From: Acidobacteriaceae bacterium
GTDB lineage: Bacteria > Acidobacteriota > Terriglobia > Bryobacterales > Bryobacteraceae
Assembly (NCBI GenBank): GCA_019233755.1
Contig: JAFAMD010000010.1
Location: 1 to 64,000 of the forward strand
Direction of reading: 5' to 3'
DNA length: 64,000 nucleotides
Shown piece after piece: positions 50,501 through 54,920 of this stretch. A program made the translations under genes and the position numbers. The notes beneath the pieces are model-generated. The model was not told where the DNA came from. It saw only the letters and a list, made by a program, of their open reading frames with translations, and made no database searches. Positions within the stretch are counted from its first letter, which is position 1. Every line of letters begins with the position of its first letter.

Positions 50501-50630
50501 AAGCCAGGCCTTAACGCTTTACACCACGCCGGTCATTTATCTCTACATGGATCGCTTCAGCCTCTGGCTGCAACGCTTGCGAGGAGGCCACATACCCGAG
50601 GCTCCTGCCGAAGCTGTTGGACCCGCTTAA
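47520..50630 (+). CDS. RND efflux pump inner-membrane subunit (MdtC-like)
   Basis: The 1036-residue protein is a second RND subunit, clearly related to the one before it but diverged; its proton-relay motif is '[17 protein letters not shown]' and its second half has '[20 protein letters not shown]'. In MdtBC one subunit mainly carries protons and the other binds drugs, but both proteins here keep the aspartate pair. The GTG start overlaps the previous stop by 4 bases. The following STAS-like gene begins on its last base. Confidence 0.95.
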
Positions 50631-50935
50631 TGAAGGACGCGCGCATGCAAACGCAGTACACCATCACAACCGAGCCGCATCCCGCCGGACGTTCGATCAC
50701 GCTCCTGCTCAACGGCAAATTCGGCGAAGACGCGATACCCGAGCTGGAGCAATCGATCACCGAGGCGCGCGGAGCCCATCAGGAGGTCTATATCGACCTC
50801 AGCGAGGTCACACTGGTGGATCGCAAAACAATTCAATATTTCTCGGCGCGGGCAGCAGCGGACGTGAAGCTGGTGAACTGCCCCATTTATCTGAAGCGCT
50901 GGATTACACAGGTGAGTGACGATGCGGAAAAGTAA
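50630..50935 (+). CDS. STAS-like domain protein in the RND operon
   Basis: The 101-residue product has the STAS pattern: strands 'YTITTEPHPAGRSITLLLNGKFGE', helix 'AIPELEQSITEARG', strand 'EVYIDLSEVTLVDRKTIQYFSA' and final 'VKLVNCPIYLKRWI'. STAS domains bind nucleotides or act as anti-sigma antagonists, and in MlaB they support a lipid-transport ATPase. The usual phosphorylatable Ser/Thr after the 'VD' is replaced by Arg-Lys. The first ATG overlaps the pump stop by 1 base; an ATG at 50645 with AAGGA before it is an alternative start. Its overlap with the TolC-like gene makes it an integral part of the operon. Confidence 0.7.
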   Translation: MKDARMQTQYTITTEPHPAGRSITLLLNGKFGEDAIPELEQSITEARGAHQEVYIDLSEVTLVDRKTIQYFSARAAADVKLVNCPIYLKRWITQVSDDAEK

Positions 50936-52596: not shown

Positions 52597-53073
52597 ATGA
52601 AAAGTGACGAACTGACGGTTCTACGCAAGCAGCTTGCTAGCGCATTGACGGGCAGCGAGACGCATATCGACTTCGAGTCAGCGTTGCACGACTTCCCGTC
52701 GAAAGTGCGCGGAGTGAAGCCGCACGGGCTCCCGCACACGGCGTGGCAATTGCTTGAGCACATGCGGATCGCTCAAAACGACATTCTGGAATTTTCCCGC
52801 AACCCTAACCATCAATCGCCCAAATTCCCTGAGGGCTATTGGCCGGGGGCGGAAGCTCCGCCTGATGATGCGACTTGGGATGCCAGCATACGGGCGTTCC
52901 AGAAGGATGCGAGAGAGCTGAAAGAACTGACACAACGAGGCGATCTGTTCACGCCCTTCCAGCATGGCCAGGGCCAGACGCTTCTCCGCGAGATCCTGCT
53001 GGTAGCCACTCACAACTCCTACCATCTCGGGCAACTCGTTCTTCTAAAGAAAATGCTCCTGAGCGGCGGTTAA
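52597..53073 (+). CDS. DinB-family protein
   Basis: The 158-residue protein fits the DinB_2 four-helix bundle: 'PHTAWQLLEHMRIAQNDILEF' supplies one metal-type His, and the C-terminal 'LREILLVATHNSYHLGQLVLLKKML' supplies another, the usual 'H..yH.gQ' signature. Many relatives are metal-binding thiol S-transferases using bacillithiol or mycothiol, but no substrate can be named. It lies 37 bases after the TolC-like gene and may be transcribed with it. A perfect hairpin follows its stop. Confidence 0.88.
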   Translation: MKSDELTVLRKQLASALTGSETHIDFESALHDFPSKVRGVKPHGLPHTAWQLLEHMRIAQNDILEFSRNPNHQSPKFPEGYWPGAEAPPDDATWDASIRAFQKDARELKELTQRGDLFTPFQHGQGQTLLREILLVATHNSYHLGQLVLLKKMLLSGG

Positions 53074-53081
53074 AACACACC

Positions 53082-53102
53082 CCGCTGGCATTCTGCCAGC
53101 GG
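53082..53102. promoter_or_regulatory. Perfect hairpin overlapping the cimA -35
   Basis: CCGCTGGCA-TTC-TGCCAGCGG has 9-bp perfect arms and a 3-base loop, beginning 8 bases after the dinB stop. It may end the upstream transcript, although no T-run follows, or be an operator, because it covers the -35 of the downstream promoter. Confidence 0.5.
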
Positions 53103-53114
53103 CTGTCCTATAAT
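53085..53114 (+). promoter_or_regulatory. Promoter of the citramalate synthase leader
   Basis: A perfect -10 TATAAT (53109-53114) is preceded after 18 bases by CTGGCA (53085-53090; 4 of 6 to TTGACA). Transcription would start about 53121, some 16 bases before the leader-peptide ATG. Confidence 0.65.
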
Positions 53115-53136
53115 CGAGGAAGAATTCACGGGTCTC

Positions 53137-53196
53137 ATGCTCCTCCTTATTCAGAGCAGCCTCCTCATTAGCGTGGCCATTACTGGCCCTGCCTGA
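53137..53196 (+). CDS. Branched-chain amino-acid leader peptide
   Basis: A 19-codon frame encodes MLLLIQSSLLISVAITGPA and then stops. Nine of the 19 residues are Leu (5), Ile (3) or Val (1), clustered at positions 2-5 and 9-15. It lies just after a strong promoter and before a strong terminator, with citramalate synthase downstream. This is the classical layout of an ilv/leu attenuator, where ribosome stalling at Leu/Ile codons under starvation prevents termination. The peptide is too short for normal gene finding. No strong ribosome site is visible before its ATG. Confidence 0.75.
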   Translation: MLLLIQSSLLISVAITGPA

Positions 53197-53222
53197 GACC
53201 TCGTGTACTACGAAATTTTCGA

Positions 53223-53263
53223 GGCCACCGGCGGGGATCTCCAGCCGGTGGCCTTTTGCTTTT
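53223..53263 (+). terminator. Attenuator terminator before cimA
   Basis: GGCCACCGGC (53223-53232) pairs perfectly with GCCGGTGGCC (53244-53253) around an 11-base loop and is followed by TTTTGCTTTT (53254-53263). GTGGCC inside the leader frame (53173-53178) can pair with GGCCAC (53223-53228) instead, giving a possible antiterminator. The hairpin ends 43 bases before the cimA ATG. Confidence 0.85.
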
Positions 53264-53306
53264 AACAATGAACTTTTGCTGAGACGATTTCAGGACAACC
53301 TCCTTT

Positions 53307-54920
53307 ATGAAGATCTTTACCTTCGACACCACGCTTCGTGACGGCACGCAAGGCGAGTCGGTCTCTTTCTCCGTTGAAGACAAACTACTCATTGCGGAGA
53401 AGCTCGATGACCTTGGTATTGACTACATTGAAGGCGGCTGGCCTGGCTCGAACCCCAGAGACAGGGAGTTCTTTGAGCGAGCCAAGCACTTGAAGCTGAA
53501 GCATGCGCGCCTGACCGCATTCGGTGCGACCCGCTTCGCCAAAAATCCCGTCGACAAAGATCAGAATGTCGCCGAGTTATTGAATGCTCAGACGCCGGTG
53601 GTATCCATCTTCGGCAAGACCTGGGATTTTCACGTCCGGCGCGCCCTCGGCATTACTGAGGAAGAAAATCTGCAGTTGATTTCAGATACGATCGCCTATC
53701 TGAAGGAGCACGGCCGCGAGGTCGTCTATGACGCCGAACACTTCTTTGACGGCTACAAAGCAAACGCGACCTATGCACTCAAGACGCTGGAGGCGGCAAA
53801 GAATGCCGGGGCTAGTGTGCTTTGTTTGTGCGATACCAATGGCGGCACGCTGCCCATGCAGTTGGCTGAGCTCGTGGCGCAAGTCCGCAGCCGTTTTGAT
53901 GGCGTTATCGGCATTCACTGCCATAATGATTCCGAAGTTGCCGTCGCCAACACTCTGGTTGCCGTAGAGGCAGGGGCTACTCACGTGCAAGGCTGTATCA
54001 ATGGATACGGCGAGCGCTGCGGCAACGCGAATCTGTGCTCCGTCCTGGCCAATCTGGAACTGAAGCTCGGACACACCACGGTCGGCAATGAGAACCTCAA
54101 GCGGCTGACGGATGTCGCAAAGTTCATCGCGGAAATGGCGAATCTGCCCTTGCGGCGCGATCAGGCTTTCGTAGGAGCCAGCGCGTTCGCGCACAAGGGC
54201 GGCATTCACGTAAGCGCTGTCATGAAAGACGCGTCGACCTACGAACACGTACAACCGGAAATGGTCGGGAATCGACAGCGCGTCCTGCTCAGCGATCTTT
54301 CAGGTCGCAGCAATATCGCCTACAAATTGAAGCAGCTCGGCTTCAATGATTCGCTTGCGGAGACCGCCGGACGCGAGATTCTGCAGCGTATAAAGCAGAT
54401 GGAACACCAGGGATACGACTTCGAAGCATCCGAAGGCACCTTCGAGCTTTTAGTCCGCGAAGCCGCACATCCGGAGTTTCATCCGTTCGAGGTAGTGGAC
54501 TATGAAGCCACCACCAAGCTGCACGGCGGCGGCGATGAAACCGTGACCACCGCGAGTGTCACGCTGCGCATCGGCGACTCCGTTCACTCGTCCACCGCCA
54601 CCGGTCACGGGCCCGTGCACGCCCTCGACGTTTGCCTGCGTCAGTGTCTGGCGGCCATTTATCCGGCGATCATGAACGTCCATCTCACCGACTACAAGGT
54701 CCGCGTGTTGGGCGGCAAAGGCGGTACGGAATCAAAAGTGCGCGTGCTGGTCGAGTGGACCGATCACCAACGCAATTGGGCGACAGTCGGCATCTCTGAT
54801 AACGTCATCGATGCCAGTTGGCGCGCGCTCGTCGATGCCCTGCGGCTGGAGCTCATGCGGCTGCTCGAAACGGACAAACCGGCCAGGGCGAGTGTTCACG
54901 ACTACAGTTGGGCGGTGTAA
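53307..54920 (+). CDS. cimA: (R)-citramalate synthase, LeuA family
   Basis: CimA condenses pyruvate and acetyl-CoA to citramalate, opening the threonine-independent route to isoleucine. The 537-residue enzyme has the aldolase-type barrel start 'FDTTLRDGTQGESVSFS', 'DYIEGGWPGSNPRD', metal ligands in 'GIHCHNDSEVAVAN', 'VQGCINGYGERCGNANL', 'AHKGGIHVSAV', then the C-terminal LeuA dimer/regulatory domain (about 395-525) ending 'HDYSWAV'. The 'WPGSNPRD' and 'GTQGESVSFS' segments point to the citramalate-synthase subfamily rather than isopropylmalate synthase. It lacks a Shine-Dalgarno sequence; the bases just before its ATG are ACCTCCTTT. The upstream leader peptide and terminator predict control by branched-chain amino-acid supply. 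Confidence 0.93.
   Translation: MKIFTFDTTLRDGTQGESVSFSVEDKLLIAEKLDDLGIDYIEGGWPGSNPRDREFFERAKHLKLKHARLTAFGATRFAKNPVDKDQNVAELLNAQTPVVSIFGKTWDFHVRRALGITEEENLQLISDTIAYLKEHGREVVYDAEHFFDGYKANATYALKTLEAAKNAGASVLCLCDTNGGTLPMQLAELVAQVRSRFDGVIGIHCHNDSEVAVANTLVAVEAGATHVQGCINGYGERCGNANLCSVLANLELKLGHTTVGNENLKRLTDVAKFIAEMANLPLRRDQAFVGASAFAHKGGIHVSAVMKDASTYEHVQPEMVGNRQRVLLSDLSGRSNIAYKLKQLGFNDSLAETAGREILQRIKQMEHQGYDFEASEGTFELLVREAAHPEFHPFEVVDYEATTKLHGGGDETVTTASVTLRIGDSVHSSTATGHGPVHALDVCLRQCLAAIYPAIMNVHLTDYKVRVLGGKGGTESKVRVLVEWTDHQRNWATVGISDNVIDASWRALVDALRLELMRLLETDKPARASVHDYSWAV

Follow-up and report, generated by a model that had tools for sequence, protein, structure and literature searches.

Is citramalate synthase, the product of cimA, controlled by a leader-peptide attenuator in this acidobacterial genome, and if so, which amino acid does the leader report? 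The question arises from the window, by which we mean the whole stretch of 64,000 nucleotides analysed, on contig C68 of the source genome (G000; 71 contigs, 92.7% complete). A first-pass annotation had read the region upstream of cimA as a promoter, a short frame rich in Leu, Ile and Val, a terminator and a possible antiterminator. Our analysis indicates that the cimA leader-peptide attenuator is very probably real, that it is a new instance with an ordinary mechanism, and that the interesting part is its apparent origin by copying and codon re-specialisation.

Organisation and conservation of the cimA upstream region

The structural gene matches TIGR00977 with 706.3 bits against a cut-off of 450, which confirms its annotation as cimA, and among named genomes the closest CimA proteins come from metagenome assemblies of acidobacteria (Acidobacteriaceae, 84% identity; Terriglobia, 75%; Bryobacteraceae, 70-72%). 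A promoter, a leader, a terminator and a T-run occupy the space between cimA and a small upstream gene (52597-53073), and the stretch 53085-53306 folds better than 200 of 200 dinucleotide shuffles (z -5.13). The elements are as follows.

53085..53114, plus strand: sigma-70-like promoter (CTGGCA, 18 nt, TATAAT), a motif match with a similar hexamer in relatives
53137..53196, plus strand: leader frame MLLLIQSSLLISVAITGPA and stop, 19 codons; frame and C-terminus common to 18 leaders
53222..53254, plus strand: intrinsic terminator hairpin AGGCCACCGGC...GCCGGTGGCCT, predicted at -28.8 kcal/mol, pairing conserved
53254..53263, plus strand: interrupted T-run TTTTGCTTTT, read from the sequence
53307..54920, plus strand: cimA, citramalate synthase

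Of the 17 genomes of the genus (g1), 15 carry the unit of leader and terminator directly 5' of cimA, as do three genomes of two nearby genera (G158 and G159 of g58; G068 of g12). The two exceptions within the genus are a genome whose contig end falls inside cimA (G028) and one with a model match of E 0.08 only (G039). Aligning the cimA upstream regions of relatives, a check proposed with the first-pass annotation, showed that the short frame and the terminator are conserved in these 18 genomes, and a covariance model built from the 18 cimA-type leaders (R1) matches the window unit with an E value of 2.5e-31, the window being one of the training sequences.

The TATAAT hexamer is present at 53109-53114, 18 nt from CTGGCA at 53085-53090, and 15 of the 18 cimA-type leaders, among them that of the window, carry a similar hexamer 13-24 nt 5' of the leader ATG, which implies a 5' untranslated part of very small length. 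No clear Shine-Dalgarno site was seen near the leader ATG of the window. Taken alone, the promoter match does not exceed chance expectation (1 found versus 0.6 expected), which is what would be predicted if the locus held an ordinary terminator and a chance short frame without regulation. We regard that explanation as scarcely credible, since it is contradicted by family-wide conservation, by covariation between the leader end and the terminator, and by codon content that tracks the downstream gene. Furthermore, the unit at cimA stands above chance because the TATAAT-like hexamer (15/18), two Ile codons (18/18) and the R1 match are all conserved.

An intrinsic terminator separates the leader from the structural gene. 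Its stem is a perfect 10 bp (GGCCACCGGC/GCCGGTGGCC), as first described, or 11 bp with the flanking A-T pair (53222-53232 with 53244-53254), and the T-run that follows is interrupted. In an alignment of 100 sequences that was fitted to the terminator hairpin, its positions are paired in 84-100% of the sequences. The window terminator is missing from the list of our terminator scan, probably because the scan allows loops of up to 8 nt and this one has 11. Minus-strand model matches that fall on the cimA terminator (e.g., G000:C68:53213-53321) arise from the near-palindromic sequence read in reverse and were discarded, and weaker matches elsewhere in the genome (contigs C40 and C2) resemble plain terminators by eye.

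Elsewhere in the window, positions 50630-50935 hold a small frame that resembles, by eye, a STAS-type anti-sigma antagonist, between efflux pump genes and an outer-membrane factor gene.

Isoleucine codons at fixed positions in the leader

The 19-codon frame at 53137-53196 contains nine Leu, Ile or Val residues, as first reported, of which five are Leu, three Ile and one Val. Of these three amino acids, the alignment singles out Ile, which is fixed at two positions; Leu shifts place, and Val is scarce.

53167..53169, plus strand: Ile control codon ATT, -9 from the stop; Ile in 18/18 cimA-type leaders
53179..53181, plus strand: Ile codon ATT, -5 from the stop; ATT in 18/18 cimA-type leaders

Leader length ranges from 15 to 20 codons among the 18, and the commonest residues read QGGILISVAI(S/T)GPA before the stop; all 18 have Pro at -2, and 17 have Ala at -1. 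Val is kept at -7 in 13 of 18 and is otherwise rare, and Leu is common at variable positions. Ile is encoded by ATT in 60 of the 72 Ile codons of these leaders, compared with 89 of 271 in seven genes of the window. The short frame thus carries codons of the putative regulated amino acid, Ile, at -9 and -5 throughout.

These features bear on whether leader translation in this species senses chiefly Leu, or else Leu, Ile and Val together, a reading to which we give a small but real probability. The window leader has more Leu than Ile codons, Leu makes up 13% of the last 16 codons of the cimA leaders, and the Val at -7 is frequent. However, only Ile is fixed by position, and the related leaders that precede ilvB are no poorer in Leu (17% of the last 16 codons). 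Attenuation keyed to Ile is the reading that we carry forward.

A probable antiterminator formed by the end of the leader

Attenuation further predicts a second structure that excludes the terminator. The first-pass annotation had offered GTGGCC in the leader frame, pairing with GGCCAC, as the antiterminator; we rejected this candidate since it is paired in 80.1% of cells versus 80.0% in shuffles, with 0 double-changed cells. A different pairing, together with a hairpin around the leader frame, emerged from predicted folds and from the alignment.

53131..53137, plus strand: helix 1, 5' arm of a protector hairpin, GGTCTCA, overlapping the leader start codon; predicted fold and swap test
53187..53193, plus strand: antiterminator 5' arm CCCTGCC, the last leader codons; minimum-energy fold, covariation over 100 sequences, weaker over 18
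53194..53200, plus strand: helix 2, 3' arm of the protector, TGAGACC, holding the leader stop codon; predicted fold and swap test
53199..53203, plus strand: inner antiterminator arm CCTCG, pairing with 53220-53224; fold and pair counts, less kept outside the genus
53220..53224, plus strand: inner antiterminator arm CGAGG; fold and pair counts
53230..53236, plus strand: antiterminator 3' arm GGCGGGG, overlapping the terminator 5' arm and loop; fold and covariation

The pairing was evaluated in 100 sequences (18 cimA-type leaders and 82 others, 12 of 112 having been left out), which were aligned to the R1 terminator and not fitted to the antiterminator. With kinship not removed, GCCCCGCC/GGCGGGG is paired in 93.0% of 700 cells and shows 26 double-changed cells versus 9.1 in shuffles (0/500 as high). 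Four pairs have changes on both sides, a number reached in 5/500 shuffles, and sliding the partner along lowers pairing to 39-60%. Native arms bind better than 5000/5000 swapped sets over the 100 sequences, over 63 distinct arms and over the 82 others alone. Outside the family both arms differ together, as in GCCCCGG with CCGGGGC in the genomes of f3.

Inside the set of 18 cimA-type leaders, covariation support for the antiterminator appears weak. These leaders are paired in 88.9% of cells versus 85.7% in shuffles (1/500 as high) and have 7 double-changed cells versus 3.0 (9/500 as high), with 2 double-changed pairs versus 2.2. The swap test on these 18 alone was not significant (498/5000 as good), and in 13 of the 14 cimA-type rows listed, pairing with foreign terminators is on average stronger than with the native one. 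The clearest change is CCCTGCC with GGCAGGG or GGCAGGA in three genomes (G025, G026, G068), and in the window itself T53190 and G53233 meet as a G-U pair. The proposal that bases covary in this region is therefore borne out for CCCTGCC/GGCGGGG over the 100 sequences but not for GTGGCC/GGCCAC. Taken together, a mutually exclusive antiterminator with compensating changes is seen at the level of the family and faintly within the cimA-type leaders, with the supported consensus GCCCYGCC/GGCRGGG, joined within the genus by CCTCG/CGAGG.

The same arm offers an account of the conserved peptide end. A C-terminus of the form I-x-G-P-A-stop could in principle arrest the ribosome on a free metabolite, and not on uncharged tRNA, and the near-invariant Pro and Ala, together with the recurrence of a GPA-stop end across the family, would fit such a nascent-chain sensor. 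However, the conserved Pro/Ala end is explained by RNA pairing because those codons form the antiterminator arm; other ends (SPG, VPV, RPA) also occur in the family, and the Ile/Val content of the leaders tracks the downstream gene. We consider a nascent-chain sensor improbable, and we retain uncharged Ile-tRNA as the likelier signal.

Strong conservation of the RNA in the terminator and the leader end would likewise be expected of a signal-binding RNA (a riboswitch or T-box) or of a protein-bound terminator, with the short frame incidental. The covariance models of Rfam (release 15) gave 0 matches at gathering score in the window, and for 11 leader loci searched with E values up to 10 they gave five weak matches, all below gathering and none to ilv or T-box families. 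The absence of a gathering-score match and the Ile codons fixed in 18/18 leaders make this explanation very improbable, a little more so than the nascent-chain sensor. Leader-peptide attenuation is the best reading because the frame, the control codons, the terminator and the alternative antiterminator are conserved together, and this joint conservation supports the attenuation of cimA first proposed for the locus.

Predicted folding states and a model for attenuation

We compared predicted folds of the RNA left free by a ribosome at different codons. When the window RNA is free from 53183 to the loop, it is predicted to form exactly the antiterminator (-21.0 kcal/mol), and when it is free from 53205 it is predicted to adopt another fold, which suggests that a ribosome at the Ile codon at -9 would free the arm and that a ribosome at the stop codon would cover it. 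Occupancy of the terminator 5' arm was higher in the stalled than in the stop state by >0.2 in 17 of 18 cimA-type leaders and in all 82 others, three of which are wrong-frame rows. Because longer free RNA pairs more, this contrast is a consistency check, on the geometry of the predicted switch between control codon and stop codon only.

In untranslated RNA, the protector hairpin may hide the region: native pairing of GGTCTCA/TGAGACC beats 5000/5000 swaps among the 18 leaders (kinship not removed), and occupancy of the terminator 5' arm is 0.03 in the window. The mean occupancy is 0.49 for the 18 and 0.76 for the 82, which indicates that the protector is no general off state.

We infer ribosome stalling, the Ile-tRNA signal and read-through as the steps of the following model. 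With Ile-tRNA charged, the ribosome would reach the stop codon at 53194 and cover the arm at 53187-53193, which would allow the terminator at 53222-53254 to form before cimA. With Ile-tRNA short, a stall at an Ile codon would leave this arm free; the useful codons would be -9 and earlier ones, as a ribosome halted at -5 would sit on part of the arm. The free CCCTGCC would then pair with GGCGGGG, the terminator would be blocked, and cimA would be transcribed. If the window RNA is not translated at all, the hairpin 53131-53137/53194-53200 would hide the region and favour termination, an effect that would not be general in relatives. On the basis of sequence comparison and modelled folds, we hold it highly likely that a ribosome-mediated transcription attenuator ties cimA expression to charged Ile-tRNA, the unit having apparently been copied from the attenuator of an ilvBNC-cimA operon, as discussed below.

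Homologous attenuators before ilvB and other genes

R1 matches at E<=1 were found in 212 of the 237 genomes of the family, although the weakest may be chance. Eighty leaders were taken by region and others as loci, and 94 loci were read for leader peptides, with the automatic frame choice wrong in three (L226, L238, L258); ilvB leaders were recognised partly by their richness in Ile, Leu and Val. In the rest of the family, an ilvB-like start follows the leader in 78 of 80 aligned leaders, the other two standing before an ACT-domain gene (L213) and at a contig end (L214). Of 67 leaders compared with the listed places of cimA, 41 are followed after 3.3-3.7 kb by a cimA on that contig and in the same orientation; for the other 26 the comparison list holds no such place (cimA on another contig, unlisted or not found). 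The order ilvB-ilvN-ilvC-cimA was seen in seven operons (L181, L182, L188, L191, L194, L195, L198).

A further model, R2, matches 128 of 399 genomes of the class at E<=0.01, including 32 outside the family. In 10 of 13 outside-family genomes inspected by eye, the match lies before an ilvB-like gene and includes an Ile/Leu/Val-rich frame; in one of these ten (G362), the ilvB-like gene fragment was checked against TIGR00118. By eye, 7 of 20 further model matches were not branched-chain leaders (G505, G055, G115, G114, G016, G329, G335). The suggestion that the cimA attenuator is a new instance in this group therefore stands in part: none described for cimA was seen in the open-access literature, but the attenuator is not isolated, since almost the whole family carries a homologous one before ilvB, and such attenuators also occur in other families of the class.

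Similar leaders precede other genes of the pathway. A Leu-rich leader ending in GILNLSLLALGLLTGPA and a stop lies before a leuA-type gene (G196:C95:5064-5145, minus strand, L187; TIGR00973, 661.6 bits), and Ile-rich leaders lie before an ACT-domain gene and ilvA (G099:C206:2670-2774 and G100:C98:13637-13741; TIGR01127, 466 bits in G099). An Ile-rich leader of similar architecture precedes an ilvN-like gene (G158:C1:3638690-3638810; TIGR00119, 89.8 bits), and in G120 a further leader precedes a short ACT-domain gene (38.4 bits, below cut-off). The leuA gene of the source genome was rejected as a further member, as no leader was seen upstream of it but instead a divergent gene and a common A/T motif. 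At this locus (contig C43, L299) and nine others, the divergent gene resembles, by eye, a LysR-like regulator and the common motif is TATAAATTTG.

Codon content follows gene order

In the clade of the window, ilvBNC lies apart from cimA and has its own related leader, which in the source genome is the following.

G000:C14:136695-136807, minus strand: second attenuator, before ilvBNC, with Val/Leu leader MNRLQKVVVLLGAVAHRTA and stop (L179); model match E 1.2e-8

Codons were counted in the last 16 positions only, because the 5' start of many ilvB leaders is ambiguous. The 18 cimA leaders contain 72 Ile and 14 Val among 288 codons, compared with 5 Ile and 50 Val among 160 codons in 10 ilvB leaders of the same clade (seven from g1, two from g58, one from g12), a split with a Fisher p of 1.6e-19 for sequences that are not independent. 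The ilvB leaders elsewhere in the family (n=75, the 80 less the three wrong-frame loci and the two lacking a visible ilvB start) contain 277 Ile, 319 Val and 63 Leu among 1200 codons.

Within the genus, ilvB was matched in 13 genomes, of which 12 were examined and one (G030) left out. Their upstream regions comprise seven complete leaders, one partial leader (G026), three without a frame and one that is unreadable (G033), such that no leader frame was seen before ilvB in 3 of 11 readable regions (G034, G039, G029; L285, L287, L288). In G029 and G034 a terminator-like hairpin seemingly remains by eye, which would fit decay of the attenuator.

A CimA tree of 75 rows, which leaves out three genomes with short or unused CimA fragments (G068, G026, G036), contains 52 rows with ilvC just upstream of cimA, 15 with their own leader, and 8 with neither (five outgroups, two contig ends and L034). 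The own-leader rows, which represent 15 of the 18 genomes, form one clade with support of 100/100, nested among the ilvC-cimA rows. It seems that cimA left an ilvBNC-cimA operon in the clade of the window and took with it a copy of the operon attenuator. The history that we favour, with moderate confidence, is that the attenuator was copied at that departure and that the two copies then split an ancestral Ile+Val signal, Ile going to cimA and Val to ilvBNC; the control codons of the cimA copy would have changed from Ile+Val to mainly Ile.

Discussion

If this history is correct, the codon content of a leader would record the amino acid served by each enzyme, and a change of codons, with the RNA switch itself conserved, would have been enough to re-aim transcription control. 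The family would then offer a natural experiment in regulatory evolution, in which one RNA switch has three codon settings (Ile+Val, Ile and Val) that follow gene order. The cimA leader also supports a role for cimA in isoleucine supply in a genome that lacks an over-cut-off match to TIGR01127: a search for threonine ammonia-lyase in the source genome (93% complete) gave a best score of 304.4 bits against a cut-off of 378.75. Matches over the cut-off are present in G068, of the same clade as the window, and in G099, G100 and G201.

As far as the open-access literature shows, no leader-peptide attenuator had previously been described for citramalate synthase, and the present one would extend leader-peptide attenuation to a soil phylum without an earlier case in the open-access literature searched. 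Among the matches listed from that literature, none deals with a cimA attenuator, or with attenuated ilv operons in Acidobacteriota, although an earlier computational mention is possible (Lopatovskaya et al., 2010, to which PMC4833913 and PMC10272879 refer). The portion of PMC4833913 available mentions Acidobacteria only for leader-gene distances, and the word Acidobacteria is absent from the main text of PMC8632094.

The unit is best understood beside known systems. In Escherichia coli, the ilvGMEDA and ivbL leaders are classical cases of leader-peptide attenuation with branched-chain control codons; they control ilv operons and not cimA. In Actinobacteria, frames rich in Ile, Leu and Val with terminators likewise precede ilvBNC, but the main text of that report does not contain the term citramalate, and the portion available does not describe codon specialisation between two genes (PMC1262725). 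According to the accessible parts of two reports, the closest working system is the ilvBNC attenuator of Corynebacterium glutamicum and its ilvB-II motif, which likewise combine a short leader of branched-chain codons with a terminator, an antiterminator and an anti-antiterminator (PMC10272879; PMC11857589). The leader start codon there adjoins the transcription start, similar to the very short 5' part implied at cimA (PMC11857589, as excerpted). However, that system belongs to another phylum and controls ilvB instead of cimA, its likeness to the present unit is one of described architecture, and the available description does not include a division of codons between two leaders (PMC10272879; PMC11857589). 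The ilvB leaders of the same family and of other families of the class have the leader end in common with the cimA unit, and also the layout of antiterminator and terminator. They differ in standing before ilvB and in their codons, which are those of Val in the clade with a separate cimA leader and those of both Ile and Val in the remainder of the family.
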